From Limnomonas spitsbergensis (lineage: Eukaryota; Chlorophyta; Chlorophyceae; Chlamydomonadales), in contig JAYJMM010000069.1 in the NCBI GenBank assembly GCA_037349105.1, positions 620,001 to 684,000 of the forward strand: 64,000 nt of DNA. The letters run 5' to 3'. Below the pieces are notes generated by a model, which was given only the letters and a program-made list of their open reading frames with translations, did not search any database and was not told the origin of the DNA. Positions 1-64,000 of the stretch are shown piece by piece. Every line of letters starts with the position of its first letter. Position 1 is the first letter of the stretch. Position numbers and translations under genes: made by a program.

Positions 1-1
1 A

Positions 2-772: not shown

Positions 773-934
773 TTCCTTGCTGTTGGATGAATCCGGCCCG
801 TGGGCCTCGTGCCTAGTCTGACCTTGGGGCGTGTAGCCTGCTAGAGGTCAAACTCGCTTTCTTACGCCTCCCCCTCATTCCTTTAACTAAGGTTTAAGAA
901 AAGTGTGGGTTGGTGGGTGGAACTTTTCTACTTT

Positions 935-998
935 ACGGGAAGCTGGGCCGATCAGAGCTTTGTAAAACCACCTTGACTTTACAAAGTAACCTTCCCGT
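935..998. repeat. Nested palindrome between two convergent ORFs
   Basis: Two nested inverted repeats share one centre. ACGGGAAG (935-942) pairs with CTTCCCGT (991-998), and CTTTGTAAA (958-966) pairs with TTTACAAAG (978-986). It lies between the recombinase stop (772) and the end of the opposite-strand gag-like frame (1065). It could be a recombination junction or end of the YR element, or a two-way 3'-end signal. The pairing is seen directly; the role is inferred. Confidence 0.55.
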
Positions 999-1064
999 GT
1001 CCGTCACTGTCCTGACTCCACCAGGTCACACCCTGGTCGGTCTCTCACACTTCGAGGGGTACAG

Positions 1065-1920
1065 TTATGGACAGGCCCTTAGGTAAATCGCAGTATCCAT
1101 CCTGCCAGGTGGCGGAAGGGCTGGGAGGGTACGACGGGGGCGGAAATTAGATTCCCTCGGGTGCAAGACATGAGTTGTTGCTCGTTGAACAAGTGCTGGG
1201 CCAGTGTGCAGGATGGGCTGGTTACGCATGTTCATGTGCACGTTATTCGGCCTTGTATCGGGACTCATTCTGGGCAGGTCATTGTCGCCAGGGATGACAA
1301 TCGGGCTGGTCTGGTACTGGACAGGATTCACGACAGGATTTTGGGCTGGTACTAGGGTGGGGACTCCGTTCAAATTTGGAGAAGGCTGGTCAAGGAGAGA
1401 ATTCCACAAGGTTAAATCACCTTGTTTCATCATCATGGCAAGTTCCCTCAGGAGTCCTCGCTTGGTAGCAGGCGATAAGGATCGCCTCCTCTCGTTATGT
1501 TGTGCTGGGAGCGGGTCGGTGCTACAGCCTGCCACGCAAGGAGTAATGACCTGGGGCGTTGAAGCCGCAATAAACCGCTGTTGCTGGTACTGGTGCTGGG
1601 GGGGGAGCCACGACAGCGACGACTGCGGCAGGCGCAACGACTGCGACAGGGGCTGGCACGGGAGTAGCAGCAGCGACCATGACTGGGATCGGCAGGGAAG
1701 CTGTAGGAGCGACCTCGACAGGGGCTGGTGTCACTGCAGTGACGATGGGTGCTTGTGCTGGTGGGAGCTGGACAGCTGGTGGCTGGTTGAGGTTGAGATT
1801 CGTCACTGCGCGATACGTAGATTTGGTTGCACGCTTAGCGACCATTGTGAATGATAAGTAATGAATATCAAACACCAGGGATTCTTTATGCAAGACAAGA
1901 CTGGTTTGCACGGAATTCAA
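1065..1920 (-). pseudogene. Gag-like Pro/Ala-rich frame, split by a frame change
   Basis: Two overlapping minus-strand frames read as one low-complexity protein with a frame change between about 1637 and 1522. The upstream frame (1920-1522) has a likely start at MVAKRATKSTYRAV and then a long Pro/Ala/Val tract. The downstream frame (to 1065) has a Gln-rich start, an SLSPATKRGLLRELAMMM segment that looks helical, and a Pro/Asn-rich tail. No zinc knuckle, protease or reverse transcriptase motif is visible. Its position tail-to-tail with a tyrosine recombinase suggests the gag region of a YR retroelement. A short intron, programmed frameshift or decay would all explain the break. No homologue is recognised with certainty. 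Confidence 0.35.
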
Positions 1921-2061
1921 ACCGTTGGATGCATGTTGAAGTCGAACAGGCGACTGTTGCGGAACTCAGTCACTCGTCTCGGTCAACGTCGAAACGTTGC
2001 TGGTGTTACTCGGTAGCGGGGGAAACGCTGCTAGGCCTCCGAGAGTGTGATACCTGTAATA

Positions 2062-2120
2062 CTAGAGGGGTCCGACGGTAGGGGGAAAGTCGTTTTCGCT
2101 GTGTCCCTAGGCTACTTTCG
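2062..2120 (+). repeat. Left terminal inverted repeat, two-part
   Basis: Outer block 2062-2076 (CTAGAGGGGTCCGAC) and inner block 2097-2120 both have perfect inverted partners at the right end of the element. The outer 15 bp including CTAG occur in inverted form at 20830-20844. The 20 bp between the two blocks do not match the right end. Confidence 0.85.
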
Positions 2121-2265
2121 GCTTGCTGTCAGTTTTCGACAGCAGAAAGCGACAGCCTGTCGCTTTCGGCGATCGGCTGTCGATATTGTGCTAAAACGAA
2201 CAGCGAACAATGTGAAACACGCTGTCGCTTTACAGCTTTCTCAACAGCCGTTTCTTGTAGCTGAA
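2120..2265. repeat. Left subterminal GCTGTCG/CGACAGC cluster
   Basis: Just inside the left end the short words CGACAGC, GCTGTCG, CTGTCGC and AACAGC recur in both orientations about eight to ten times. A matching cluster lies inside the right end. Clusters of short subterminal repeats are typical transposase-binding regions in several plant and algal DNA transposons; that role is inferred. Confidence 0.6.
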
Positions 2266-2980
2266 CGTCTGCTCTCCCCACTTTTCCTCGTCTAAGGTGT
2301 TCCTCGGAATCCGTCATATCTTATTCTCATACAGGCTATTGCATTCCCTGCACTTCAGGTTGGACGTTTGATTTATATTAGTAGATTCGACTCAGACGGA
2401 AATCGCAACACTCCAATTGGTGACCCAGCCCTCGATTATCGTTTCGTCACGACTGAATTGCACGGCAGATGGAATGAGAGGAGCGCAACATCTACAGCGC
2501 ACAAATGAATTTAGAGAACCAGGTACAAATAATGCCTTCAAGTACCAGCAAAGCATGGCATGTGAATACTACCATCACATCCCATGCTGGTTCAGAGATT
2601 GCACGCATGAGTGTGCAAATGAATACCTTTACGATCTTCTGACGCAACCAGTTTGTCATGTTTGTTGGATGCTCTTAATGTCATCTTGCCCTCCTGTCCT
2701 CCTACCCTGCCTCCTGCCCACCTACCCTCTCGCCTTGACGCCCTCCTGCCCTCCTCCTACCGTCCTACCCTCCTACCCACATGCCCTCATGCTACTACTA
2801 CTCATAGCCATCTACTGCGCGACCAGGTGCTGATTGTGCGTTAAATTCATAGCATAGCATGGCATTAACAATTCTCAAGTACTATCACTCCATGCTATGC
2901 GTGTTGTTATATACATGAGAGTGAAGATAAATAGGCTCATGACTACATTCAACTGCAATGGGAAACACTGCTCCCTTCAG
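2266..2980. other. No clear exon; first intron-type minisatellite at 2684-2790
   Basis: The 5' end of the dioxygenase-like gene should lie here, but no exon is convincing. A stretch at 2684-2790 is built of CCCTCCTACC and CCCTCCTGCC units, the same motif found in introns at 3716-3990 and 13331-13820. The rest looks unique and A/T-rich. Confidence 0.4.
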
Positions 2981-5355
2981 ATTCAAGGAAAGCGCCGGTC
3001 AACTAAGCCGTCATCATCGAGTATCGATCTTCCTACGCAACCTGCGAAAAAGGTGTGTCGTGTTTCTAGAATATTTTGTAGCTAGGTAAAATAGGCTCAT
3101 GTCCCTGCTCCAAACCCTGCTCATGCTCATGTCCCCTGTCACTGCCCCTGTCCCCTATCATACACATGTCCCCTGACCATGCTCCTGACCCTTGTCACTG
3201 CTCATGCCCCCTGTTCCTGCTCCTGTCCCCTTTCATGCACATGTCCCATGTTCCTGTCCCTGGTCATTGCTCAAGCCCCATGGCTATGCTCTTGTCCCCT
3301 GTCCATGCTCATGCTCCTGTCTCCCATCCCTGCTCCTGCCCCTGTCCCTGCTCCTGTCCCTTGACCATGCTCCCCCCCCCTGTCCCTGCTCATGTTACTG
3401 CTCCTGTCCCTTGTCACTGCTCCTATCCCCTGTCACTGCTCCCGTCACTGCTCCTGTCACTGCTTCTGTCCCTTGTCCCTGTCCCTGCTCCTATCCCATG
3501 TCCATGCTCCTGTCCACTGTCCATGCTCATATCACTGCTCCTGCCCATGTCCCCAATCCTGTCCCTTGGCAGTACTCCTGTCCCCTGCCCCTGCTCCTGT
3601 CCCTTGACACTACTCCTGTCCCCTGTCCCTGTTCCTATCCCTGCTCCTGTCCCTCGTCCCCCTGCACCCATCTATTGTCACTGCTCCTGGCCCTGCTCCT
3701 GTCCTATGCCCCTGTCCTTGCCCTTCTACCCGCCTGCCCTCCTACCATCCTGCTCTTCTACCCTCTTGCCCTCCTACCATCCTGTCGTTCTACCATCCTA
3801 CCATTCTACCCACATGCCATTTACCCTCCTGCCCTTTTACCCTCCTGCCCTCCTACTCTCCTCCTCTTCTACCCTCATGCCTTTCTACCCTCTTGCCCTC
3901 CTACCCTCCTGCCCCTCTACCCTCCTACTCTTCTACCCTCCTACCCTTCTACCATCCTACTCTCCTACCCTACTAACCTCATGCTCTCCCACATGCATGC
4001 ACATTCATTTTGTCATGCAGGTCCTATGTGAGCGGTTAGAGTTAGAACCGGAAAATGGAACAAGTGCACCCAGCACAACCGACTCAATCATGCAAGCAAA
4101 GATCCACACAGTACGTTAGTATATTGTACATATCATGCCATGTTTTTATAATCCTCATTTTCAAAGCATATTATGCTTGCATGCTGGGCATTTGGATGAA
4201 ACGTGTGCCTTACATTCTAAATGCAGGAGCTTGTGGCATCTGTACAAGGCAGCGCATCATCTAGTTTGCTTGGTCTGCAGGAGTCTTACACACAGTTCGG
4301 ATTCTGCGTGCAAAAACCGGATAAAAAGACATTGGACATGTTGCAGCAATACGGGGGACCAGAACGCATTTCAAGCTTGGTTGATCCCAAAGATCTTGAG
4401 GAAATCTTTCAGGACTTCAAGGTGCTAAAGAATGGGGATCTTAAGACTGAAACATTCCAAGGCCAACGAAGCATGCTGCCACTGACCACCAAGGGACACA
4501 TCCAGATGTCTTCAAAGGCGAATGTGGAACAGCTGCAAAACGTGAGATACTGGCACAGTGATTGATGTAGGGTACGTATAATATACTCAAGGGATATGGT
4601 CACTGAATGTATGGTGGCAGGGGGGCTACTGGTGGGAAGGCAGTAGAGGCAGGCAAGAAGCAATATATAAAGCACGTAGCAAGGAGTTGGGGACTAAATT
4701 CAAGAATGAGAGCATTAACTTGTGCTAAATTTCCCCGTATCTTGAAACTACGCAGATAGGTCTCAAGATCAGGGCAGAGGGATTGCGACGCCTCAAAGAG
4801 CTAGTTTGGCCGCTGGATTTCAATGGACTGACTGGGAGATCCGACCACGATGCTTTGCTCATGGATATGGTGCAGAAGGGACAACTGGGACAACCTCAAG
4901 CAGCACATGTGGACTTCCCGGCTAGCTCTGAGGAAGAGCTGTTGCGAGTTGCTATTTTGGCTTTAGAGGAGTTTTCTCTTTATGTCTACCCAAGCAGCCA
5001 CACCTTGATGCGGAGAATGATGAAGGCTCATGGTCCCAACTTTCTACTGGACAGTACAATTGAGAAGGATGTAGCCATTGCCCAAAGCATGCAGCAACAG
5101 GATCCGTGGCGACTCTTGGTTCAGCCATGTGAGCTCATCATCTTTGATGGCTACCTCGTACACGCTGGCACAGAAGGCGAACATGGCAAAAGCAGACTCA
5201 GAATGCACTTCTACCTTCAGGCTGTGGATAACAAGGTGTCTGTTAAGGATACCAAGGGTCACACATTGACCTTCCCGGTACAGCGGATCCACGGTGACAT
5301 TGAGAGCAGACATGTTGCAGGCAAGTACACGCAAGTATGGGTCGGACCCCTCTGA
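2981..5355 (+). CDS. 2-oxoglutarate/Fe(II) dioxygenase-like protein (element cargo)
   Basis: Four exons join in phase 0 with GT-AG borders: 2981-3052, 4021-4110, 4227-4541 and 4756-5355 (TGA). Earlier exons are not located, so the roughly 358 residues are a minimum. The last exon carries the iron-binding layout of a 2OG-Fe(II) dioxygenase: an H-x-D in AAHVDFPAS, then about 100 residues on CELIIFDGYLVHAGTEG with the distal His, then SRLRMHFYLQ with an Arg placed to bind 2-oxoglutarate. Family members oxidise nucleic-acid bases, proteins or small molecules. The substrate cannot be told here, and similarity to TET/JBP is not established. The last 18 bases are identical to the right end of the element, so the C-terminus QVWVGPL is partly transposon-end sequence. 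The third intron-like gap (3053-4020) is almost all minisatellite. Confidence 0.6.
3090..3990. repeat. Intronic minisatellite, two motifs
   Basis: From 3090 to about 3715 the sequence is made of 12- to 24-bp variants of TGCTCCTGTCCCTGTCACTG. From about 3716 to 3990 it switches to CTCCTACCC/CTCCTGCCC units. It fills the intron between exons 2981-3052 and 4021-4110. Open frames across it are an artefact of composition. Confidence 0.85.
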
Positions 5356-5554
5356 TTTTATAAACGACTTCTGGCCAGAACATGAGCTCATGTGGTGGGA
5401 GTTAGAACATGGCGCACATGTGAAGGACCTGATACATGTTTGCTTCAAATGATTAGCCATAAGGAGCATGCCAAGGAGCATGTTTTGGTAAGACAAATAG
5501 GGTGCCACTGATTTCCATTAGTTGCACCAAGGCAGGCATGAGTGCTAGGCTCTA

Positions 5555-5965
5555 ACTTGTATCTTGTATCCGTTGCCGTAACATGGGTTAGGGTTGTGAG
5601 ACATGGTTTAGCTGCTTATCGGTTTCTGTAGTTTCTGTTGCCTTTATCTTGTGCGGCCTGTCTTTATATAAATCCCGGTGAACGCTTTATTTGGTATCCG
5701 TTGCCCATAAATGGGCGAAGGTTGTGAGTTATGGTTTACCTACTTATCTGTTCATGTGAGCAGTTATCTTGTTTGGCCTTTCTTGTGTGAAACACCAATT
5801 CAGCGATTCCTCTTGACCTGAACACCCTATGTTTTATCCGTTGCCTTTAGATGGGCTAGGTTTGTGAGGCATGGCTTAGCTGCTTATCGGTTATTGACAG
5901 CCGTTATCTTGTGCGGCCTGCTTTGTGTTAAATCCCAATTCTGCGTTTCCCCTTGACCTCCCAGA
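5555..5965. repeat. Three tandem copies of a ~130-bp unit
   Basis: Downstream of the dioxygenase-like gene, three diverged copies start near 5565, 5693 and 5828. Each contains TATCCGTTGCC, then TTGTGAG and GGTTTA/GGCTTAGCTGCTTATC, then TTATCTTGT and GCGGCCTG. No coding sense is seen. It lies between two convergent genes and may be part of their 3' regions. Confidence 0.7.
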
Positions 5966-6102
5966 ACATGACCCAGTCCCTGCAGTATGCATAGTAGGGC
6001 AAGGTACAATCTTCCTACAGCCCCTTTTTCCAAAGCGCTAGTAAACCCTAGTAGGCACGTTATCGCAGTGTTGACCTAGTAGGCCTGATAAGTGTACGGT
6101 CT

Positions 6103-6170
6103 CACAACTTCAAGAAAGCCGCACAACCTGAGAAAATGCCGCACAGCCGGGAGGTATGCTGCAGAAATTT
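6103..6170 (+). repeat. Isolated seed copy of the 15.9-20.1 kb satellite
   Basis: About three consecutive 20-bp units are present, reading GCCGCACAACCTGAGAAAAT, then GCCGCACAGCCGGGAGG. They match the large satellite nearly 10 kb away in the same element. The surroundings (5966-6515) are otherwise unremarkable, and a copy of the dispersed ACCTCTGGGCC repeat follows at 6500-6546. Confidence 0.7.
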
Positions 6171-6791
6171 TCAGTGTAGGACAAGACCATCAAGGTTTGG
6201 GACCAGCCCCTTCATACACAGCAACCATATATTGTATACCATAACAAGCCAAAGCCTCCCTGAAGTGTTTGTCTCCGTAACACTGGTAAAGTTTGTGGTG
6301 CCATATGTCAGGTCTAATCCCTTATCTTAAGTCGTCCTTTGCTAGGCAAATGCTCTCGACCTTGCCCGGCTTGTGAAATAAGGCCATGTTTGACGGCTCC
6401 AGCAAAAGACACAGCGCCAAGCTTGCTCTAAACTTCTATAAGCCCGCATCTAATGTGAGCTCTCTTTACTTTTATAGCTGTCTTTTTGAATCACGACGTG
6501 GTCGAGCTTCAATTCAGCATGGCCCAGAGGTGTAATATCAATGACCTTATTCGAGTTGCCATCAAGTGAGGATGGGAGTGCCCACGGGAAACGAATATCA
6601 TTATGTTACATCATGCAACACATTTGTAGCAATATAATAATTGCAACACAAAGTATTCAAGGAAGCATCATAAAGACGCACCTTAGTAAAGCATGTTCTA
6701 GAGTTGGTGCCACATCTTTTCACACACGCTTACATAAATCCATACGTGTATAAGAAGTTAATATTCCTATTAGTGATAGCAGCCCACAAAC

Positions 6792-9549
6792 TTAGCTAAG
6801 GCGCACAAAAAAGTGCATATGCTTCTGGGCATTGCTACCGTACATGGATACTTTGCAGCACCCCTGGTGACTAAACACACAGGCAACAGGAGAAGAAAGG
6901 TTGAGGACAGTCGTAATTAAATCAGGCCTGAAGAAAACATCACCCCCAGCCTTCCCCACATTGCAAACAAACATTTGCACAACCGGATTAGACCCGACCA
7001 AGTGGAACAGATGCCTCCTGTCCTCCTCCCTCCAGCCATCACAAAAAGCAAACACAACCTGAGGCATACGGCAGCCAGCCACACATACTTCAAGCGAGGG
7101 CAACTGTGCGCAAACCACAATATCCACACCGTACTGGACAGAAATGCGGGACAAGGAAATTCCACCGTCAACCAATGCATCAGAAAAGGCAGCCAAGATA
7201 TGAGCCTGCCCCGCATTCTTAACCTCAATACCTGTGGCCAGCTTGGCTCCAAAACACAGGCCAAGAGCCAACACAATACCACATCCTGCCCCTATGTCCA
7301 AAAGCTCATAGTCCGTTCCAGAGCCAACCCATTCGTGCACTCGCCCAAAGATTTTTTTCAAAGATGCGTATGTGAAGCTGCCACTCATGCCTACACCGGC
7401 GCTGCCGAGTCCACCAAGTTCAGTAAACAGGCGCCATATCTCCTACACAAATCATGAAGCATTATATTATGATTGGCTAGACTGATAAGACAACAATTAT
7501 TATACCTTCTCGAGACTGCTTTTCTGGTTGTTGGCCTTGCCCACAGACTCTACAGGTTCGCTCTCCGTCTCATCTGAGTCCTCATCTTCGTCCTCGTCTT
7601 CGCTCTCCATCTGCATATATGTAATTACGTGTCATCCACTAATCATCAGGCTACATTATATCATTTTTCTGACATTCCTTTTCATTCATAAAAATTGCAA
7701 TAAGCTTTCACCTGGATCCGTACTGGAATAGGGGGCTCCCGCTCAGAGTAAAGTTTCTTCAACCGCTCAAATCCTTTGCCACTGAAGCGGTGCTGCGGAC
7801 CGAAGACCGTAGCCGGCAAGCACTTCTCCCCCTTCAGCTGAAAGTGAAACATGACAGGCCCAATAAATGCAAACATACAAGATAGTAGTCTTTGAAGGGG
7901 GGTAATGCACTGGTTTATAATCACACATGTTTCAATGATGACATTATTTGGCCAATAGTTTTCCGTCAGGAGGCGCATATCATATGTTAGAGATCATCTT
8001 ACCTCATATTCTGATTTCCTGCCGATTGCAGAACCAGGCGCTCTGAATCCCTTCTTCATGGTTGTGGGGACAAAGTTCACATCGCTCCTGTGGTGAAGAA
8101 TGGACACACTCAGTGTTGGAAAATTGTGGGTGAGAAGGATTTTCAACTTACAACATAACAAAAGTGGAAACCCTGCGAGCCTCGTACGCCTTCGTAACCC
8201 CATCATCATCCTCGATGGAGTACTCAGGGAGCATAACTTCGATGAAGAAGGCGCCTGGGGGAAGGACCTTGGCGATGATGACAATATCAAATTCACGAGC
8301 CAAGGTGAAATCTTCATCATCCCTGGGAAAGAATCCAGACAGGCTGTACTAGTAGCCCTGCATCCCAGGCGCGGCTATAAGAGGCTCGGGTATGATACCT
8401 GCAGAAAAGGAAGAATTTAAGCATGCATACCAATAATTTTGAAATGCAAAGGGCAATACCTCTCGTAATGGCCCTCCAGGCCACCCTCTCCGGCTCCAAG
8501 TTGGGTTCCACGCCATACAGCTCAATCGCGCACTTTCTCAGAAAAGAAATGTTTACTCGCGAAACCTGATCTTCCGGCCCGGGGACAGGACCGAACAAGA
8601 TGTTGAGGTCCACGCTGTCGACAGTGTCATTGGTTGATTGATAGGCTCCCACAGTAACATGTACTTCGTCTTTGCAAAGGGCGAAGAAAATGGGATCGTG
8701 GGCACTGGGGTCCTCCAAGGCATCCAGTTTGTAGGGCATACCGTGGAGGGAGAACACAGTCTTCTGGCGCCTTGCATCGCTGAAAAAGGAGGTCACCTGT
8801 TCAGTGAATAAACTGTTACTTACAGTCAAGTATAGAGATGATACCCTGTTGTTAAGCATGTCATCACTAGATAGAAATAGCTCCGCATCTGTATAATGAA
8901 TAATGTACCTGATCCGGATCTAATGGAATTGTGATCTGCACAGACTCCGTCATTTCCGCACCGCAATCGGAAGGCTGCCCCTGAAACGGCAAAGGACATT
9001 GTTCACTATGATCCATAGCATGAAGCAAATATATCAGGTGGCCGTTCGATCAAATTGGTCTTAGATAGAAACTACATTGCATCCCTAAATTATGAAAATT
9101 AGCCTACCGATATGCTGAGTGGCACCTCCATGGCACCACAGTTGTCCTCAGCGTCATTGTGGTTGCCCTCGGAGTCACTGCTGCTTTCAGACAACTCGTA
9201 CACTGGGAACCTCTGTGGAAAAAAAATGCTGTGACTGAACAACCCAAATCAGTGTCAGAATCAGCTTTAGATGTTAACCATGAAGTCTTACCGCCTCCAG
9301 ATTTGACCTGTCCCATTCTGGAATAGAGGCCTCAATTTCCTGCTCGGTTGGAGGCATCTGATTTTCCAGCGCCTTCACAAATAATATGAAGCCTTCGCCC
9401 TTGTCTGCAAATAAATTCAACTGGTCAGTGGTTGGCAAGAAACGAGACGGCTCAATGACATAGACACAATTGAGCGGTGATTAAAATTTACCTGTCCTGA
9501 ACCGACTCACACCCTCTGGCATCCCATCAACCACCCTGCCCACCGCCAT
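6792..9549 (-). CDS. SAM-dependent methyltransferase-like protein (element cargo)
   Basis: This is a multi-exon minus-strand gene. Exons read: 9549-9492 (ATG, MAVGRVVDGMPEGV), 9404-9292, 9212-9108 (acidic, SESSSDSEGN), 8980-8909, 8779-8460, ~8324-8153, ~8090-8003, ~7838-7711, ~7612-7508 (very acidic) and ~7440-6792. The last exon has LGGLGSAGVGMSGSFTY followed by motif I ELLDIGAGCGIVLAL and GIEV, the start of a class I SAM-binding fold resembling DOT1-type and related methyltransferases. The join between 8909 and 8779 does not keep frame as drawn, so an exon is probably missed there. The N-terminal half is unrecognised. It converges with the dioxygenase gene and diverges from the transposase candidate. 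A chromatin or DNA methylation role is inferred only. Confidence 0.6.
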
Positions 9550-9945
9550 AGGCAGGTGCGGACTGTCCCGGACTGCAAGGTGTATCACATGGGGGGGCAA
9601 GGATCAGAAGGGGATGGGGCAGGGAGGGGGGCTGGAAGGGGATGGATCATAATGGGGTGGGGGGGGGAGGGAAGGCAGGAATCAGAGGAGTGGGGGGGGA
9701 AGGGGGGATATGAGGAACAGAGTAATATGTGTAAATGATATATACCAGTAGCTGAGATGAAACCTAGCCTAGCTTGCTTACCGACTGCAGCAACAACAGC
9801 GAGAGCTGCTGCTGGCGCAGCAGGAGGATAATGACGACAGTGATTGACGGGGCGCCAGCGGAGAGGAGATTTTATCTTCTGCCATTGACCCCAAAGGCAC
9901 GTACATTCATAACGCAAGCATTGAAACGTAGGTATTGTGCAATTT
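9550..9945. promoter_or_regulatory. Shared 5' region of two divergent element genes
   Basis: The methyltransferase-like gene starts at 9549 on the minus strand and the transposase candidate near 9946 on the plus strand, so these 396 bp probably hold both promoters. The most obvious content is a G-rich stretch (about 9590-9710) of GGGGATGGGG and GGGGGGGAGGG runs. No clear TATA box or operator was identified. Confidence 0.4.
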
Positions 9946-12900
9946 ATGTCTGAGTCTTATTTATTTCCCCCTGTAGGTTGCCAGACTCCTCTTGCGCCGC
10001 ACACGCTCTGCGAATGTTGCGACAAGCTGCATGACATAAACTCGTGTTGTTGTGGCACACCTGCACGTTGTTATCCTAGCCGCTGGACATTCTTGAAATT
10101 TTTGCTGGTTTGCCCAAACAATAAATGCTGGAAGGCCAGCAGTGTAACTGGAGGAACTGGAGCGGGCCGGACCTTTGACTTTGAAGCCGTATGGGAGCAT
10201 CGGGTTCGCACCTCCGTTGTCAACAACATTGGAGGCCAATGTCCTGGCATTCCTTGCAACTCAACACTTGTATCGGCTGTTCAACCACGGGGCACACCAT
10301 CTTTGCAGGAACTACTTGCAGCGGTTGACAATCCATCATTTTACGTGTTGCACAAACTCTTTCATCGTCAGCACAATACTTCTGCACAAGCGCTACGCAA
10401 TTTCAGTTTGCAGTATAACATCTTTCGGTACACAGGCGAAATACGGTGTTTACGCAGCTCTTTTTGTGACACAGTCTCACCGTGCGCACATTGTCCTTTA
10501 TTGCAGTCAGAGCTGTCAACAGATATTCTTGGCCTTTCCCACTCTTTGACTAACGATTCTTCTCCAGCTAACTTTACCAACAACCGTTTTTTGACCATAC
10601 CTACGCTTCGACGAAAAGCAGATTTTTTGGCTGCTCAGAGCAAAGACGAGATGAAAGCAGTCACCCGGGGGCGCGCCCAAGTTGCATGTGCAAAAACTGC
10701 TTTGTCTGAGGTGAAAATATTACTGAAAGGCATGAGGAACCAAGGCGATTGTAACCAATTGGTGAAGCTTGTCCAGGCTGCCACTGAGCAAGGTGAGGTA
10801 CTTGCTTGTATTCATGTCTTTCTTTATCTAGCTACTAGCTCACACCATGTTCAAAACCCAAGCAGGCGTCTTACGCGATCACGAGGCCCTTCAAACGTTT
10901 CTGGTAGATTGCTTCACGGCCTTATTGAATGGCCGCCGCCAGCGCTCACTTTCACCGACATCCACCCAATTTTATGTTACTTTAATGCAAACTGGTGGTC
11001 AAATGCTGCACGACTGGGTGTCTACAATATTTTTGGGACCTGCCTCAAGCACCACGAAGCTAGTGAAATCCTCTTTTGAATATCCTTACCTTCTCGGTCT
11101 CACATCTGGTTTCCTTGATAGTGCTGTCTCTCTTATAAGCGCCTGGGGCCTTCTTGATGCTCCTTTTCTTTTGTCGGAGGATGGATCTGCATTACAACAA
11201 CGAATCGATATCACAGTGCGGGCCAACAAAATACATGTTTTTGGATTATCTGGATGCAGCTTCTGTGTGACAACGCTACAGCAATTTCGGCAAGCAGCAG
11301 AAGAACGTCCTCTAGCCTCTACCTTATATGCATACACACTTGTTCCTTTGGTGCAAGGCGCTCCCCACTTCCCATTATTTGCCTTCGCTCATGACAATTC
11401 TAATAAGACATTTAGCACTCAACTAGCTTGGCGGATTTGGCAGTTCATTTGGCAGGTGAGAAGGACATCCCTACATTTATACCCTTCATTTATTGGTCAC
11501 CCTACCTCAAGCTCACAGTGCTTATGCGTGCTGCCCACATATGACTCACCTTCACGTACATTGCTTATTTAATTGCTTATATCACACGCGCAGGAGGCTG
11601 CGAAGAGGAAACTGAAGCTTATTGGTCATACCCACGACGGCGACCGCCGGTTGGTTAACATCGGGTATCAGCTTTGCAAGTATCCTCCTGCTCCTCCCCC
11701 TCCGGCTCCCCCCCCTCTGGCTCCAGCTGATTTGAATGATATAGCCATAGATCACGACCTATTGACCCTACGCATTTTTGTGCAAACCAATGTGGACGGC
11801 TCTCGAATGCATGTTATGGATATTATTGATTGGCTGCATACCGGTTGGCGTCTAAGAAATCAGTTTTTGCAGCCTGTGCGGCGGCTTGACATAGGCGGCC
11901 TATTTGTATCATCTTCGTTCATCATGCAGAACATGGACGCACTTTGTCTCTCTCCTGCTGACATGGACGCATCTGACAAGCAATCCATGCAAGGTATGCT
12001 GAAGCTTTTTGATTTCAAGCAGATGTCAGACGGTTCTGTGCAGAAGACGTCTTTAATTCGTGATGCTTTACGGTCCTCTCCACCAGAAAACTATGGCACG
12101 TTCCTATTTATTGAATTTGCGCACAGATATCTCTCTATGTTTTTAATTAAAGATCGTCAACCCTTGGATATCGTGGAGGATGCCGCTTTCTGCATTATGT
12201 TCATAGGATTTTGGAAACGGGACATTGATATGCGAGACCGAGAATTCCGGGGAAATGTTGGGCCACGGACTGCCCGAAACGACTCCAACTGTTTAACGTC
12301 ACAGACCTGTCACGACGTTGTGTTCACATGCACCATGGTTATTTTGACTATCAAACTATTTAGGCAGCATTTTACGACGGTGAAGGTCGACTTTTCTAGA
12401 CTGTCCAGCCGGTTTTCAGAGTATTTGTTTCAGACGTTGAGGAGCGCTACGAAGACGAGCAATAAAGTTAATGCAGCGCAATACTGCGACATTGTGAAAG
12501 GTTGTTCAGCGTCCCTTTTTCAAGCTGCTTCAGCTGCCAGCTCGTCTAACACCTCTGGGTCTCTTCCGGCTATGAAATACAAGAGAGGCATGCCAAGGTC
12601 TACGGATCGAGTCGTTGCAGGCTGGAATGCTGCAAATTACGATTATTGGCCTCTTGATGAGGTAAGATGGTAGATCGAGTTTTGCTCATTTATGAACACG
12701 TTTTGCCCACACTTTTTGCTTCCACATGCTAAAATAACTGATCAATGCTCTGTGTAGGATATCAGGACACGCATGGACTCAACGCTACGGGTCATCACTG
12801 AGTTGTTCGACGTCCAATTAAAATCAAGCTCGGGCAAAATACACAATATCTGGACAGCCATCAGGAGAGTTCCGCAACCTGGAGGACGGTTCATATCGTC

Positions 12901-15682
12901 ATGTCTTGCGGTCACCAGACTGCAATTGCGTTTGTTGATACCATTCTTGATGAAGGTAGGTGCCTGCCAGCCTGTGACAACATAGCAGTCACGCATCAGA
13001 CAGCTACCTTGATTGGCTTGTTGTTATCATGGCAGGGATACTACTAAGTCAGGTTGCCAGTGTGGGATGGAAGGGAAATACGCGTCATGTTCTGAAAATG
13101 TAAATGATATATTGCTTTCTTTATTCAACCCATTATTTGTGATGTGCACACACAGGGAGCTCCTGACATCATCGCTGCCCTCAATGGGGATCCCTCCTTA
13201 AAAGGTCTTAATCCCTTACAAGATTTTCTCGAGCCACCTCGTATTCCTTCTGACTTGAGTGCCTCCGATGGAGAGGAGGAAATTGCACTTGCTATCAGAA
13301 GGTAATGTATTTGAACATAGTTTGGTACACTCTGTCCTCCTACCCTCCCACCCTCCTGCCCTCCTACCCTCCTGCCCTCCTGCCCTCCCACCCTTCTGCC
13401 CTCCTACCCTCCTACCCTCCTACCCTCCTACCCTCCTGCCCTCCTGCCCTCCTGCCCTCCTGCCCTCCTGCCCTCCTGCCCTCACACCCTCCTACCCTCA
13501 CACCCTCCTGCCCTCCTACCCTCCTCACCTCCGAACCTCCGAACTTTCTAACCTCCTATCCTCCTACCCTCCTATCCTCCTATCCTCCTATCCTCCTACC
13601 CCCCTACCCTCCTACCCCCGTACCCTCTTGCCCTATTACCCTCCTATCATCCCTCTGTCCTACCCTCATTCCCCGCCTAACCCTCCTGCCAGCATGCCCG
13701 TATGTTCTCCTGCCCGCATGGCCTCCTACCCACCTTCCATCCTACCCTCCTACCTTCCTACCCTTCTATCCTCCCATCCTCCTGACCTCCTACCCTTCTA
13801 CCTTCCTGCCTTCCTATGGGCGAATGTTGTGCAGGACCATACCTGATGATGATGGTTACACATCCACTCAAGAAGAAGATTTTGAGGACCTTCCGCCCGA
13901 GGCTGATTTGCCATTTGTCATTGATGAAGATGAAGATGAAAAGCCCCTGCAGGTAGCTCTTTGGACATTGTAGTTCAAAACAGTTGATGTACTTGAAGTA
14001 GTTTTGAGTTTTGGGAGCGCCCTGCATCTTCTAGCTGCCACATATATTGTATATAAGAATGCACCATAATGTGCAGGGGAATGCGGATGTCAAGAATGCA
14101 GCGCGAAAGGATACATGCACCAACAGTGGCAGAGTGGAGCTCAGTATCAAGCGTGTTATGGCAAGTCTTGCCCAGGATGCAGGTAAGGTACATGTACAAA
14201 TACTCAGACATTCCTCATGGCAATAAATGCAGATAATACACATTTTAAGATACAAATTGCTTGTGCTCTCACTGCAACAATAATATCGTGCTTCGTACCC
14301 CGATCACTTCTCACACCAGCTTAGGGTCCTCAGTCCCTCACACCTGATCTGCTTCACACCAGCGTAGGGTCCCCAGTCCCTTGCACTTGCCTGATCTGCC
14401 ACACACCATGTTAGGGTCCCCAGCCAGTACCTCACTCCTGATCTGCTTCACACCAGCGTAGGGTCCCCAGTCCCTTGCACCTGATCTCCCTCGCACCAGC
14501 TTTGGGACCCCAATCCCTCACACCTGATCTCCCTCGCACCAGCTTAGGGTCTCCAATCCCTCACATCTGATCTCCCTCGCACCAGGCCAGGGTCCCCAGT
14601 CCCTCACACCTGATATGCCTCGCACCAGCTCAGGGTCCCATAATATTAGACAATACAAATCCCTAACCCATGGCCCCCATTATTTCCAATCCCTTATAGC
14701 TGATGTTCCTGTCGACGATAGCAATAAAAGTCTAGTGAAGTCTCTTCGGAGGTATGCATATCTAGTGAATGGCTCCATGGCCAGTCAAGGGGACGGGCGA
14801 GGTGAGCGATTTCACCAGAATCAAGTCCGTGATGATTCAGCGCGTGGAGAGGGCACGGTGAAGCCCAAGGATGTCATTGCGGTTGCTTTTCGGGTATGTA
14901 TCCTTTTGAAGTGTTGTTCTTATGACTTAAACATCGGGTATGTATCAATTGGACTTAATCAACTGTATTTCTGGGAAATACTCAACTTGTACTGAGGAGC
15001 TGAGAATATTGAATCATATGACTTCAATCATTGCACCTAACATGCTTCTCTGTGGATTCTGCAGATGGTTAGAGATGACCAGTCGGAGTACCTTGATGTC
15101 CACTATGGCGAGGTGCTGAGGTTACTGAAGAATACTACTGTCAAGGGTGGGAGAATCAAGGTCAAGGAGCAGACTTCTATACATTGGGATGATGACCAGG
15201 CAACATTTTACTGCAAGTGGTTTGAGCGGGAGCCAATACGCGGATCGGCCGGTGAAGATGCAGCTTACCGTGCCTTTACTATGCCATTAGCATGTCATTA
15301 TGGTTACAACTGGGAGGTCCGGGCCCAAGACGGGATGGTTTTATGCCCCGTTAAGATGGTGTGGCGAGAAGATAAAGCACAGTACTGGCTAGATGTGAAG
15401 GAGGAGACCCTAGCCCATGAACATGCCATGGCTGTCACTAACCCAGGGGAGTTTGCTGCGGTGGGTGATCTTCGAGTGTTGCCACAGCAGATGTCGGCTC
15501 CGGCCACTGTGGCAGCAACCCTGGAGGAAGGTAGAGAGCGTAGGGTGAGGAATTCTCTTGTGAGGAAGGAGCGGCAAGTTGTAGAGGCAGCCAAAGCCAA
15601 GGCAATGGAGGCGATACGAAATGCAGGCGCATTGCAAGCAAAGGAGGGAAGGGAAAGTAGGGCAAACGCTAGAAATAAATGA
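9946..15682 (+). CDS. Giant multi-exon protein, transposase candidate
   Basis: Ten exons with consistent phases: 9946-10792, 10866-11455, 11594-12661, 12758-12955, a small one near 13053-13090 (uncertain), 13156-13301, 13835-13952, 14077-14182, 14700-14893 and 15065-15682 (TGA). Together they give about 1,300 residues. The N-terminus is Cys-rich (LCECCDKLHDINSCCCG), possibly a zinc-binding DNA-recognition segment. In the middle, FAFAHDNSNKTF and GHTHDGDRRLVNIGYQL supply conserved-looking Asp residues of the kind seen in RNase-H-fold DDE transposases, followed by a long helical-looking region ending in SSRFSEYLFQTLRS. The C-terminal exons are acidic (VIDEDEDEKPLQ), then basic with a coiled-coil-like Glu/Arg/Ala tail. 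It is the only large protein between the inverted repeats. Transposase function is an inference; no superfamily is recognised. Confidence 0.5.
13325..13825. repeat. Intronic CTCCTACCC/CTCCTGCCC minisatellite
   Basis: About 490 bp of 9-bp units CTCCTACCC and CTCCTGCCC, with some CATCCTACC and TTCTAACCT variants, fills the intron between exons 13156-13301 and 13835-13952. The unit matches intronic repeats at 2684-2790 and 3716-3990 in a different gene of the same element. Open frames here are compositional. Confidence 0.9.
14280..14640. repeat. Intronic ~60-bp tandem repeat
   Basis: Six or so copies of a unit containing CACACCTGATCTGCCTCGC, then ACCAGCTTAGGGTCCCCAG and TCCCT fill the intron between exons 14077-14182 and 14700-14893. 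Copies differ in length from about 45 to 70 bp. Confidence 0.85.
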
Positions 15683-15955
15683 TTCTGTTTGTCTTGTGCA
15701 CGAATGTTGCCGTTTGTTTTCGGAGTGATGCAACACCACTAACATGTACAATGGGCATAATCATTTCTGCTGTTTCAAATAATTTTGACATAGGTTTATG
15801 TCCAATCTTTTTGATTTTTTGAGGTCATTAAGCAGTTACTTCGAGTGCAATCAGAAACACTAGCAGTGGCCTTTTAGGTTAAAATGTAAGATACCACCTT
15901 TGAAAGCAAGAGATATATACACCTCGGATATACACCGGAGAAAATGCCAATCAAC
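15683..15955. other. 3' flank of the giant gene, nothing recognised
   Basis: A/T-rich non-coding sequence between the TGA at 15682 and the start of the satellite. It probably holds the transcript's 3' end; no feature is distinct. Confidence 0.4.
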
Positions 15956-15957
15956 CT

Positions 15958-18900
15958 GAAGGGCTGCCGCACAGCCTGAGCAAATGCATCACAGCTGGGA
16001 GGCATGCCGCACGACCAAAAGAAATGCCCCACAGCCGGGAAGAATGCCACACAACTTGAAGGAATGCCTCACAGCCTAAGGAAAGTCGCACAACCTGAAG
16101 GCAGGCGTCACAGCCTGAGGAAATGCCTCACAGCCGGGGGGAATGCTGCACAATTTGAAGAAATGCCTCACGACCAGAGAAAATACCACACAGCCGGGAG
16201 TAATGCCACACAACCTGAAGGAATGCCGCACAGCCTAAGAAAATGCCACACAGCCGGGAGGAATGCCACACAGCTTGAAGGAATGCCTAACAGCCTGAGA
16301 AAATGCCTTACAGCCAGGAGGAATCTGCACAACCTGATGAAATGCTGCACAGCCTGAGCATATGCCGCACAGCCGGAAGGAATGTTGCACAACCTGAAGG
16401 AATGCTGCACAGCCTAAGAAAATGCCACACAGCCGGGAGGAATGCCACACAGCTTGAAGGAATGCCTAACAGCCTGAGAAAATGCCTTACAGCCAGGAGG
16501 AATCTGCACAACCTGATGAAATGCTGCACAGCCTGAGCATATGCCGCACATCCGGGAGGAATGTTGCACAACCTGAAGGAATGCTGCACAGCCTAAGAAA
16601 ATGCCACACAGCCGGGAGGAATGCCACACAGCTTGAAGGAATGCCTAACAGCCTGAGAAAATGCCTTACAGCCAGGAGGAATCTGCACAACCTGATGAAA
16701 TGCTGCACAGCCTGAGCATATGCCGCACAGCCGGGAGGAATGTTGCACAACCTGAAGGAATGCCTCACAGCCTGAGAAAATGCCGCACAGCCGGGAGGAC
16801 TGACGCACAACGTGAGGGCATGCCTTACAGCTGACACACTTGCTGACAGCCGGGAGGAATGCCGCACAACTTCAAAGAATGCCTCACAGCCTGAGAAACT
16901 TTCTGACAGCCGGGAGGAATGCCGCACAACTTGAAGGAACGCCTCACAGCCAGAGAAAATGCCTCACAGCAGGTTGGAATGTTGCACAACCTGAGGGAAT
17001 GTTGCACAGCCTGAGAAAATGTCGCACAGCCGGGAGGAATGCCGCACAACCTGAAGGAATGCCGCACAGCCAGAGAAAATGCCTCACAGCAGGTTGGAAT
17101 GTTCCACAACCTGAGGGAATGTTGGACAGCCTGAGAAAATGTCGCACAGCCGGGAGGAATGCCGCACAACCTGAAGGAATGCTGCACAGCCTGAGAAAAT
17201 GCATCACAGTTGGTTGGAATGTTGCACAACCTGAAGGAATGTCTTACAGCCTAAGAAAATGCTTCACAGCCGGAAGGAATGCCGCACAACTTGAAGGCAT
17301 GCCTCACAGCCTGAGAAAATGCCGCACAGCCGGGAGCAATGATGCACAACGTGAGGGCATGCCTTACAGCCTGAGAAACTTTCTGACAGCCGGGAGGAAT
17401 GCCGCACAACTTGAAGGAACGCCTCACAGCCAGAGAAAATGCCTCACAGCACGTTGGAATGTTGCACTACCTGAGGGAATAATGCACAGCCTGAGAAAAT
17501 GTCGCACAGCCGGGAGGAATGCCGCACAACCAGAAGGAATGCTGCACAGCCAGAGAAAATGCCTAACAGCAGGTTGGAATGTTGCACAACCTGAGGGAAT
17601 GTTGCTCAGCCTGAGAAAATGTCGCACAGCCGGGAGGAATGCCGCACAACCTGAAGGAATGCCGCACAGCCTGAGAAAATGCCTCACAACAGGGAGGAAT
17701 GCCTCACAACTTGATGGAGTGTCTTTCAGCCTGAGAAAATGCTTCACAGCCTGAGAAACTTGCTGACAGCTGGGAGATATGCCGCATAACCTGAAGAAAT
17801 GCCGCACAGCCTGAGAAACTTGCTGACAGCCGGGATAAATGCCGCTCAACCTGAAGGAATGCCGCACAGCCTAAGGAATGCCTCACAGCCAGGAGGAATG
17901 TCGCAGAACCTGAAGAAATGCTGCACAGCCAGAGAAAATGCCGCACAGCCGAAAGGAATGCCGCACAACCTGGAGGAATGCTGCACAACCTGAGAAAATA
18001 CGGCACAGCCGGGAGGAATGCCGCTCACCATGAAGGAATGCCTTACAGCCTGAGAAACATGCTGACAGCCGGGCGGAATGCTGCACAACTTGAAGGAATG
18101 CCTCACAGCCTGAGGAAATGCCTCACAGCCGGGAGGAATGCAGCACAACTTGAAGGAATGCCTCAAAGCCTGAGAAAATGCCTCACAGCCAGGAGGAATG
18201 CCGCACAACCTGATGAAATGCATAAGGAATGCCGCCTGCACAGCCAGGAGGAATGTCACAGAACCTAAAGGAATGCCGCACGGCCTGAGAAAAAGTCGCA
18301 CAGCCGGGAGGAAAGCCGCACTACCTGAAGGAATGCCACACAGCTTGTGAAAATGCTGCACAGCCAGGAGGAATGCCGCACAACCTGAAGGAATGCCGCA
18401 CAGCCTGAGAAAATGCTGCACAGCCAGGAGGAATGCCGCACAACCTGAGGGCATGCCTTACAGCTGACACACTTGCTGACAGCCGGGAGGAATGCCGCAC
18501 AACTTCAAAGAATGCCTCACAGCCTGAGAAACTTTCTGACAGCCGGGAGGAATGCCGCACAACTTGAAGGAACGCCTCACAGCCAGAGAAAATGCCTCAC
18601 AGCAGGTTGGAATGTTGCACAACCTGAAGGGATGCGTTACGACCTGACAAACTTGCTGACAGCCGGGAGGAATGTTGCTAAACCTGAAGGAATGCCTCAC
18701 AGCCTGAGAAATGCCGCACAGCCGGGAGGAATGCCGCACAACTTGAAGGAACGCCTCACAGCCAGAGAAAATGCCGCACAGCCGGGAGGAATGCAGCACA
18801 ACCTGAAGGGATGCGTTACAACCTGAGAAACTTGCTGACAGCCGGGAGGAATGCCGCACAACCTGGAGGAATGCCTCACAGCCTGAGAAATGCCTCACAG

Positions 18901-20100
18901 TCGGGAGGAATGCAGCACAACCTGAAGAAATGCCACACAGCCTGAGAAGATGCCTCACAGCCAGGAGGAATGCAGCACAACCTGAAGGAAATGCCACATA
19001 GCCTGACCAAATGCCTTACAGCCGGGAGGAATGCCGTACAACCTGAAGAAATGCCGCACGGCCTGAGAAAATGCCTCACAGCTGGGTGGAATGTCGCACA
19101 ACTTGAGAAATGCCTCACAACAGGGAGGAATGCCGCACAACCAGAGAAATGCCTCACATATGGGAGGAATGCTGCATAACCTGAAGAAATGCCGCAAAGC
19201 CTGAGAAAATGCTTCACAGCCGGGTGGAATGCCGCACAGCCTGGAGAAATGCTGCACGGCCTGAGAAAATGCCTCACAACCTGAAGAAATGCCGCACAAC
19301 CTGAGAAATGCATCACAGCCGGTAGGAATGCCGCACAACCTGAAGAAATGCAGCAGAGCCTGGGAAAATGCCTCACAACAGGGACGAATGCCGCACAACC
19401 TGAAGAAATGCCACACAGCCTGAGAAAATGCTTCACACCCGGGAGGAATGCTGCACAATTTGAAGAAATGCTGCACAGCCTGAAAAAATGCCTCACAGCC
19501 GGGAGGAATGCCGCACAACCTGAAGAAATACCACACAGCCTGAGAAAATGCCTCACAACCGGGAGGAATGCTGCACAACCTGATGAATTGCCTCACAGCT
19601 GGTAGGAATGCCGCACAGCTGGGAGGAATGACGCACAACCTGAGAAATGCCTCACAGCTGGTAGGAATGCTCCACAGCTGGGAGGAATGCCGCAAAAACT
19701 GAGAAATGCCTCACAGCTGGGAGGAATGCCGCACAGCTGGGAGGAATGACGCGCAGCTGGGAGGAATGCCGCACAACCTGAGAAATGCCTCACAGCTGGG
19801 AGGAATGCCGCACAACCTGGGAAATGCCTCACAGCTGGGAGGAATGCCACACGACCTGAAGAAATGCAGCACAGCCTGAGAAAATGCCTGATAGCCGGGA
19901 GGAATGCTGCACAACCTGAAGAAATGCCACCCAGCCTGAGAAAATGCCTCACAATCGGGTGGAATGCTGCACAACCTGAAGAATTGCCACACAGCCTGAG
20001 AAAATGCCTCACAACCGGGAGGAATGCTGCACAACCTGAAGAATAACCACACAGCCTTAGAAAATGCCTCAAAGCTGGGAGGAATGCTGCACACCTTGGA
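15958..20100. repeat. 4.1-kb satellite, 20-bp unit in 60-bp higher order
   Basis: The basic unit is AATGCCGCACAGCCTGAGAA with two common partners, AATGCCTCACAGCCGGGAGG and AATGCCGCACAACCTGAAGG, usually cycling as a triplet of about 60 bp. Longer higher-order blocks of roughly 174-180 bp repeat near-identically at 16235-16740 and of about 120 bp at 16960-17700. Because 60 is a multiple of three, long open frames appear on both strands; none has gene-like composition. The left half is the most homogeneous, and the right part (19100-20090) carries many GAGAAATGCCTCACAGCTGG variants. Confidence 0.95.
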
Positions 20101-20103
20101 GGA

Positions 20104-20525
20104 GTGCCTTATGCAAGCAAGCTGGCCAGCAGCTCTAGGCAGGTGCGCAAGCTGGGCAGTAGCTCCATGCTGGCGTCATAGTGTGCCAGCATGCCCAGGC
20201 TCCACTCTGGTGCGCAAGTTATCTAGCCAGCAGTACAAGGCCTGTGCGCAATCTGGGCAGCAGGTCCATGCGGGCGCGGAAGCTTGACAACAGGTCTAGT
20301 CTGGCGCATAAGCAAGCAGTCATGCAGCTTCAGGATGAGGCATAATGGTCTATGCTGGCGTGGAAGCTTGGCAGCACGTCCAGGCTGACGCGGCAACAGG
20401 TCTAGGCTGGCGCGCAGTACTACGATGGTGCGCAAGTTGGGCAGCAGGTCCATGTGGTCGCGAAAGCTCGGCAGCACGTCCAGACTGACGCGAAAGCAAT
20501 TTTGCCAGCAGCTCAAGTAATCCAA
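20104..20525. repeat. Second tandem repeat, ~40-60 bp unit
   Basis: A diverged array follows the satellite, built of GCGCAAGCTGGGCAGCAGG then TCTAGGCTGGC or TCCATGCTGGC units. It ends near 20525, about 165 bp before the right subterminal cluster of the element. Confidence 0.75.
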
Positions 20526-20689
20526 CTGTAGTGAGGGCATATGACATCCGCCATCGTTAAATACACATATATATATAAGTTACGACTTTATACTTTGAAA
20601 CAAGGCAAAGCCAGCGAATGCGTTAACTGTAGGGGCGATGACGGAAAGAGTGGGCATTCCGCTACTCGGCTACTCGGCTGTTGTTTTTT

Positions 20690-20796
20690 CGCTGTTGAAA
20701 GAGCGCTCAAAGGTACAGCACAGTTATCGACAGCGAACGCAATTTCCAACAGTGGAAATCAGTAATTGACAGCGCGCTGTCGATTTCAACAGTTCG
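20690..20796. repeat. Right subterminal GCTGTCG/CGACAGC cluster
   Basis: This is the partner of the left subterminal cluster. CGCTGTTG, TCGACAGCG, CCAACAG, TTGACAGCGCGCTGTCG and CAACAG occur in mixed orientation within about 110 bp of the right inverted repeat. TTGACAGCGCGCTGTCGA is itself nearly palindromic. Confidence 0.6.
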
Positions 20797-20844
20797 CGAA
20801 AGTAGCCTAGGGACACAGCGGTTCTATGGGTCGGACCCCTCTAG
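20797..20844 (-). repeat. Right terminal inverted repeat, two-part
   Basis: Complement of the left end: a 24-bp inner block (20797-20820), a 9-bp spacer, then the outer block ending in CTAG at 20844. The 18 bases at 20825-20842 also occur, in the same orientation, at 5336-5353 across the stop codon of the dioxygenase-like gene. Confidence 0.85.
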
Positions 20845-20849
20845 TAATA

Positions 20850-22110
20850 CATACTGTCTTGTTCCTCGGTACTGGGACCTGATTTAGGCACTGTACTGGA
20901 TTCGGCTCTGGAAGTTGAATAATTCAATCCTAGCGGTCTAATGGGACGCGAGTGCCCGACACGCGTGTCTCAAAACTCTTTCGAGCCGACGGAAGGGTTC
21001 TGGCAAGGAGCGAAGCGACAGGATCGGACCGATTGAGCTATGGAACCACTGTAGAGGTCCTAGGTACCCTGGGGGGTAGGACTCTAATATCTAGTTAAGG
21101 ACTCACTGTTGTGGAGGCTTGGAGAGGTAGCGACAGAAGGAGCGAGGTAGTCGGGAAGTTGTAGTCGTCAGGACAGTTGACCGGAGGGGGGGGGACTGGG
21201 TGCTCGCAAAGGGAGACTGTTGGGGACTAATTAAAGGATAGTGGGACAGCCAGGGATTGAGCCTGGTGGAGTGATCTCGTCTGAGACTTCCCGATAACTA
21301 GCAGAGCTCGCTTATAAGGGAGTTGCAGGGTTTAACCTGTGAGGGTTCAGGACTGGGCTTGCCAGGCGACCTTGCAACTTCCGTATGGAGCGTAAGCGCC
21401 GATAACGTAAGGCAGGTCGTGTCAGCGACTGGTAATTCTGGGGTACTGGTTACATGACCATTACACAAATGCTGCTCACTACGTTCAGCTCGCGTTGGAC
21501 GGCCTCGCGGCCAAGCCATTTTAAGCAGGGCCCAGAGGTGTAATGACGTCGTTAACTTTGCTCAGCTTGTTCATCCTGTTCACTAACCGCCCCACGCTGC
21601 CAAACGTTCATCAGGGCCCACTCCTTGCACACCATACACCCTTCATAAATTTCATACCTAAGTTCTAAGATACTGACAATTGATGACACCGCCATCGTGG
21701 CCATTCCAGCACTCAGGGCCCCAAGGTGTTTTTCAGTAAATACTGCCGAACACCCAAAGGCATTAGTTCACGACCCGGTCAGGTTCAGCCCATCACGACA
21801 ACGTCCCTCGGGTGGCTCCCAAAAGAGCCCTTAACGATAACATTCAAATTGGCATGTCAACGATCGGACACCTCAGTGACTGAGGGGGTTACAGGGGCAA
21901 CCCTGAAGTGCCATACAGATTTTGATGTCCCCCTAGCCCCTAGGCATGAGCACAGCCCCTAGATGGCCCAGGCCGGATGGGGTCCACCGGTCGTACCATG
22001 GCAGTCAGGGTTGGGATTCCCTTGCCTTGAAGAAGACATGGCTTTATTTATCGATGGCTGAAGTTGCAAGGGGGAGCATCCAGATTGGTATCCAGCCATC
22101 GGTCTACGGC
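20850..22110. other. Right flank of the giant element, no gene recognised
   Basis: No coding exon is supported. If the giant element inserted into the retroelement fragment at 1-2061, this flank would be the other half of that element, but no reverse transcriptase motif or matching terminal repeat is visible. A minus-strand copy of the dispersed ACCTCTGGGCC repeat lies at 21490-21550. Confidence 0.4.
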
Positions 22111-63800: not shown

Positions 63801-63901
63801 CAGTCCCGCTCACCACCCCTTCAGCCTCCTGTGCTCCCCCCCCCCCCCCCCCTAATCGCCCTCTCCCACCCATTGCACTGACACTGCAAATCTTCTCTCA
63901 G

Positions 63902-63937
63902 CTTCATCCCCATCATTAAGAATGCCGACAACCCAAA
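63902..63937 (+). other. Possible short plus-strand exon
   Basis: Between TTCTCTCAG and GTAAGTGGG, 36 bases read FIPIIKNADNPK. The splice signals are good, but the strand is opposite to the kinase and no partner exon is in the window. Confidence 0.25.
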
Positions 63938-64000
63938 GTAAGTGGGTTCAGGGCACATGATTCACAGTCAAGGGTTTAGGGTTAAGGATTCACGTTTGAA

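Follow-up and report, generated by a model that had tools for sequence, protein, structure and literature searches.

What moves an 18,781-bp segment of the Limnomonas spitsbergensis genome that lies between perfect inverted repeats and carries genes for a dioxygenase, a methyltransferase, and a very long protein, and what might the two enzymes do for it? We pursued these questions in a window of 64,000 nucleotides (assembly GCA_037349105.1, contig JAYJMM010000069.1, positions 620,001 to 684,000 of the forward strand), in which the segment had been proposed from the sequence alone to be a transposon, and across the genome (260 Mb in 124 contigs, with the window on contig C69). The element proved to be real and mobile. 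It is very probably an autonomous cut-and-paste DDE (Asp-Asp-Glu) transposon, with the long protein, of 1,294 amino acids (aa), as its transposase.

A mobile element with two kinds of end

The exact limits of the element are window positions 2063-20843, and it is bordered on both sides by a 7-bp target duplication, GTAATAC. Its features, in window coordinates, are as follows.

2056..2062, no strand: left target duplication GTAATAC, a single copy of which, differing at one base, is found at uninterrupted paralogous sites
2063..2076, plus strand: outer inverted repeat of the A end, TAGAGGGGTCCGAC, from genome-wide end matches
2097..2120, plus strand: inner inverted repeat of the A end, with 108 genome matches and none for the control
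2121..2262, no strand: subterminal CTGTCG cluster, putative transposase binding sites
2939..5355, plus strand: gene for a putative PhyH-type 2-oxoglutarate-Fe(II) (2OG-Fe(II)) dioxygenase of 372 aa, from a splice model and Pfam PhyH matches in relatives
6792..9549, minus strand: gene for a putative class-I S-adenosylmethionine (SAM) methyltransferase, about ten exons, from a hand-read exon model
9946..15682, plus strand: transposase candidate, nine exons, 1,294 aa, from a splice model and conserved motifs
15965..20108, no strand: minisatellite of about 68 units of 60 bp near the B end, with words that recur in all ten other whole copies
20797..20820, minus strand: inner inverted repeat of the B end, from the genome-wide match search
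20830..20843, minus strand: outer inverted repeat of the B end, from genome-wide end matches
20844..20850, no strand: right target duplication GTAATAC, from a reading of both flanks

The original prediction had identified the element correctly and placed its limits, at 2066..20840, a few bases off. It also described the inverted ends as perfect, which they are, and as having a 15-bp outer part including CTAG, which they do not: the outer repeat is 14 bp, perfect at both ends, and gives the element tips of TAG..CTA. CTAG was rejected as the true tip because other copies begin with TAGAGG after different bases, so that the leading C is the last base of the target duplication. The inner repeat, of 24 bp, is likewise perfect at both ends. 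Between the outer and inner repeats the two ends differ, with GGTAGGGGGAAAGTCGTTTT at the A end and CCATAGAAC at the B end. Clustering of the subterminal motif, tested as CTGTCG, was strong at the left end only. Specifically, the left 200 bp contained five CTGTCG, a number reached by none of 5,000 single-base shuffles, and the right 200 bp contained two, reached by 23 of 5,000; 20 more were present in the remainder of the window, outside the element. All three of the intron-containing genes that had been proposed were present in the exon models.

The ends recur throughout the genome. The 15-mer comprising C plus TAGAGGGGTCCGAC had 38 exact matches, and the inner repeat had 108 when up to three mismatches were allowed, while the reversed-pattern control gave zero in both cases, such that chance inverted repeats could be set aside. 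We then paired end sites that faced each other within 30 kb, among the matches listed, and read both ends of each, resulting in 30 pairs (29 including the window copy, and a thirtieth on C39). An exact 7-bp duplication surrounded 25 of the 30, and every one of these 25 joined one A-type end to one B-type end. The expectation of a multicopy transposon with matching target duplications was thus borne out, as was that of further copies of its ends. The remaining five pairs count against this reading: two had duplications of another length (8 bp in C40, which has a changed tip base, and 6 bp in C23), and three had none (C38a, C99b, and C121), of which C99b has a B end on each side and is possibly not a true pair. 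Two further end reads, in C84 and C41, were partnerless and were left out of the pair count. No strong common sequence was seen among the 24 target duplications compared.

Additionally, we joined the window flanks with a single GTAATAC and searched the resulting 507-bp query against the genome. Fourteen places spanned the junction at 91-97% identity, with weaker ones next. At least 41 matches were listed, two being the window's own halves and 39 lying elsewhere. The junction was gapless at both places checked (C79 and C52), where the target stood as a single copy differing at one base. Because the joined flanks match elsewhere as one piece, the site that received the element was itself part of a different repeat family. 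These uninterrupted paralogous sites, found within this genome rather than that of a relative, lack the genes, the reverse of a site that has the genes without the ends.

The sequence harboring the element (window positions 1-2055 and 20851-21350) is itself repeated. Elsewhere, C41:1308501-1332803 contains eight inner-repeat matches in one direction at a spacing of about 3.49 kb, suggestive of a tandem array derived from one transposon end. At C24:204095-204120 two outer ends stand back to back with CTAG in common, as though an element had landed directly at another's tip.

A candidate transposase that no family model recognizes

The 1,294-aa protein is encoded by nine exons separated by eight introns, all GT..AG, and has a cysteine-rich N-terminus. 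Eight database relatives were recovered, six from Chlamydomonas eustigma and two ENA proteins, in searches that both scored the best 8,000 candidates by shared words; the closest among the scored candidates were C. eustigma proteins, at 49-52% identity, in keeping with a green alga as the probable host. Candidate catalytic residues are D388, D494, D558xxH, and E755. In the first alignment of relatives, the EDG and DGD motifs and the D and H of DWxH were invariant (this last site reads DSLH in one relative), and the glutamate of FSEY was common to the four sequences that reach that position. These residues follow the D, D, C/DxxH, D/E pattern described in the hAT, Kolobok, P, MuDR, and Dada superfamilies (PMC3706591, PMC8869645).

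Several results weigh against this assignment. No Pfam transposase model matched the spliced protein or its eight relatives, and scans of the relatives gave only three weak, unrelated matches; the description of a large protein from no recognized family was accordingly upheld. Compared with solved structures by sequence, the protein had three chance-level matches (best E 0.27) in one search and none up to E 10 in a second. The predicted structure of one relative, P0004, built from eight sequences, was unusable (mean predicted local distance difference test score 41.6, predicted template modeling score 0.30), and it is therefore from the motifs that we infer a DDE transposase with an RNase-H fold.

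We next considered which copies carry this gene. The contig C94 copy is a second one with all three genes; it measures 28.7 kb between inner repeats and has its own target duplication. Its transposase is identical at residues 1-1,082 and without stops, as far as the sequence was read, and its DNA is 99.74% identical to the window's in the transposase region. Its methyltransferase and transposase genes are separated by about 10 kb of additional sequence, of which the 4.0 kb read failed to match the window element at the threshold applied. The copies are nearly identical, and hence recent. A third copy, C35, has the three-gene arrangement in diverged and decayed form: within the 15.9 kb read, the last sixth of the transposase was all that could be found, interrupted by stops, and an intact outer end was not seen. 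Both C94 and C35 have the same gene order and directions as the window copy, and the arrangement is thus not a one-off gene cluster.

The ten other whole copies read, of 9.5-17.3 kb, all share words of the minisatellite. Dioxygenase exons 2-4 are retained in two (C38a and C95), five have fragments of this gene (C3, C11, C40, C69b, and C90), and three had no dioxygenase match (C9, C38b, and C84). Neither a transposase match nor a methyltransferase match was found in any of the ten. Such a distribution would fit a reading in which another, unseen transposase moved the ends and all three genes, including that for the large protein, were captured passengers. The same applies to four further copies (C121, C17, C103, and C111a), where the 3.0-3.5 kb expected to contain the transposase yielded none, and this alternative also draws on the lack of fold evidence for the large protein. 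However, D, D, DxxH, and E are conserved in the relatives, whether of another alga or from ENA, the protein is unchanged in C94, a three-gene copy with a duplication of its own, and transposase-less copies are usual in cut-and-paste families. We consider an unseen transposase very improbable.

Under autonomous transposition by the large protein, the 1,294-aa DDE transposase would bind the asymmetric A and B ends (the CTGTCG cluster on the left being a putative binding site), cut at TAG..CTA, and insert the element by way of a 7-bp staggered cut. Insertion with such a cut is shown by the data, as is the spread of transposase-less copies, and that spread entails mobilization in trans; the same transposase would also move internally different copies that share its ends.

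A dioxygenase and a methyltransferase carried by the element

The dioxygenase gene has four exons (2939-3052, 4021-4110, 4227-4541, and 4756-5355). Its product scored 19.7 bits against Pfam PhyH, below the cut-off of 22, and PhyH matched all five of its relatives (best E 6e-8), four of which also matched 2OG-FeII_Oxy_5 (best E 0.0055). H52, D54, H137, and R148 were invariant in five sequences, an HxD...H...R arrangement that we take to be the 2OG-Fe(II) dioxygenase motif. Comparison with solved structures gave chance-level matches only. In Pfam scans, neither the spliced protein nor its five relatives matched a TET/JBP domain, the models recognized being PhyH and 2OG-FeII_Oxy_5 only; TET/JBP identity was rejected, though the protein may be distantly related. 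The protein thus qualifies, by its sequence, as a PhyH-type 2OG-Fe(II) dioxygenase, in keeping with the gene class that had been proposed, and is not recognized as TET/JBP. A genome search gave 23 dioxygenase matches, some being pieces of single copies. Those in C118 and C101 were 67% and 62% identical to the window's, and the 9.9 kb read around C118 had no transposase or methyltransferase match.

The methyltransferase was modeled by hand with about ten exons, the catalytic exon lying at 6795-7442. It has Motif I and a class-I fold, features of a class-I SAM methyltransferase such as had been proposed. Its resemblance to DOT1 is weak, with DOT1 rows ranking best; the VIA-align lists, which re-examine matches made by Foldseek itself, cannot exclude anything. 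A single-sequence search gave two chance-level matches only. No DNA methylase model was among its Pfam matches and DOT1 rows were best, so DNA methylation is not favored as its probable activity. Relatives of about 40% identity lie outside the element in C26, C117, C86, C70, C113, and others, several of them near-identical copies, and four database relatives are short ENA and JGI proteins.

We examined constraint on both genes using the ratio of nonsynonymous to synonymous substitution rates (dN/dS), among the copy pairs listed. For dioxygenase exon 4, dN/dS between the window and nine other copies was 0.16-0.26; the comparisons with C118 and C101 gave 0.17 and 0.23, and C94 differed by one base. 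The methyltransferase exon gave 0.23 with C35 and differed by two bases in C94 and by six in C121. Higher ratios among other pairs detract from a picture of maintained function: 0.92 for C119c-C35, 0.60 for C35-C38a and C35-C95, and 0.47 for C119c-C38a and C119c-C95. So does a premature in-frame TAG near 8350 in the window methyltransferase, owing to which the window copy may lack this enzyme; C94 is open at the same codon. The ratios show apparent constraint between lineages that fades among transposase-less or decayed copies, and the dioxygenase looks relaxed between transposase-less copies.

Both enzymes may simply be neutral passengers, for example if the dioxygenase, as other PhyH enzymes do, has small molecules as its substrates. 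Among the ten other whole copies, the dioxygenase is wholly or mostly lost in eight and the methyltransferase in all, and the stop in the window methyltransferase and the relaxed dN/dS between some copies also fit, as do PhyH relatives located elsewhere, among them C118, around which the 9.9 kb read showed no transposase match. Set against this, both genes are kept with low dN/dS in the three-gene lineage, and C94 and decayed C35 keep gene order and directions. We regard the passenger explanation as quite possible. Both enzymes are part of the three-gene form, and in the functional alternative the PhyH-type dioxygenase and the DOT1-like methyltransferase would act on chromatin or nucleic acid, favoring expression or transposition; most simply, the DOT1-like enzyme might methylate histone and so keep copies open. 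We put forward a chromatin or anti-silencing role for the two enzymes tentatively. Of the original prediction that the element marks or unmarks its own chromatin or DNA, the part on DNA was not sustained: nothing links either enzyme to DNA marking, the dioxygenase apparently being PhyH and not TET/JBP, and the methyltransferase leaning toward DOT1. The part on chromatin is a hypothesis.

If the enzymes do act against silencing, the element would offer a natural system in which to test the writing or erasing of chromatin marks by mobile DNA. If not, it would still add an unclassified DDE-like transposase lineage. The broadest proposal, a new superfamily-level cut-and-paste lineage, mainly of green algae so far, that uses the DOT1-like and PhyH-type pair against silencing, is unlikely as a whole on present evidence.

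Apart from the element, window positions 1-770 resemble a tyrosine recombinase on by-eye translation only, and positions 62001-64000 have a guanine-cytosine skew of -0.55.

Relationship to known transposons

No description of the element was found in the open-licence literature (subscription papers, preprints, and Repbase lay outside this search). TET/JBP genes are carried by several transposon superfamilies in fungi (PMC12730594), and it is as TET/JBP carriers that dioxygenase-bearing transposons are described there; here, a different class of dioxygenase is accompanied by a methyltransferase, and the pair rides with a transposase that no family model recognizes.

KDZ elements are one comparison, Zisupton and Kyakuja being reported in Chlamydomonas relatives (PMC8226300). 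Like the KDZ transposons that carry a TET/JBP gene, the element combines large size with a 2OG dioxygenase as an accessory gene, and it shares 7-bp duplications with Kyakuja, those of Zisupton being 8 bp (PMC12730594). However, the ends of Kyakuja are CA..TG and lack inverted repeats (PMC12730594), in contrast to the TAG..CTA ends and perfect repeats found here, and our element has a PhyH-type dioxygenase rather than TET/JBP, with a methyltransferase added. The KDZ domain (Pfam PF18758) had no match in the spliced large protein or its eight relatives, nor anywhere inside the element. The model matched 18 places elsewhere in the genome, which demonstrates its power, and a low-power profile comparison of the large protein with two genomic KDZ domains returned a probability of 0.5%. 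On these results and the ends, KDZ membership was rejected.

The element could instead belong, as a divergent member, to a superfamily already described, the likeliest being Dada or hAT (hAT7). Dada transposases have D, D, DxxH, and E, an N-terminal CCCC zinc finger, a length of 1,402 aa in one case, and 6-7-bp duplications (PMC3706591), and the long, multi-exon protein found here, with its cysteine-rich N-terminus, 1,294 aa, and 7-bp duplication, resembles them (PMC3706591, PMC8869645). The residue pattern is not diagnostic of Dada, since hAT, Kolobok, P, and MuDR have it in common. Moreover, Dada-U6 and Dada-U1 are without terminal inverted repeats, and the Dada families with definable ends lie in small RNA genes (PMC3706591), whereas our element has perfect repeats; ARAGORN found no transfer RNA gene in any of 20 loci holding ten copies and their flanks (small nuclear RNA genes being outside its scope). 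Accessory modification enzymes are not described for Dada in the accessible portions of these papers (PMC3706591, PMC8869645).

For hAT, the Pfam matches of the large protein and its eight relatives included no hAT model, in scans run without a hAT positive control. The tips, TAGAG, fit what we presume to be the hAT pattern, YARNG. The hAT7 elements of rust fungi make 7-bp duplications, as here, and some of their families carry a TET/JBP dioxygenase, but they were classed by similarity to hAT transposases (PMC12730594), which Pfam did not detect in our protein. Membership in either superfamily is, in our judgment, doubtful. We have placed the element among the DNA transposons, in an unassigned DDE-like lineage.

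Transposons have acquired modification enzymes in other settings as well. Mariner elements similarly place a methyltransferase gene beside that of the transposase, but differ in having a Mariner transposase and an endonuclease, and in one case a cytosine-C5 DNA methylase domain (PMC3627910). Orchid Ty3/Gypsy elements have acquired an RNA demethylase domain, and so share with our element the acquisition of a modification-enzyme domain, in their case within a long terminal repeat retrotransposon (PMC9289625).

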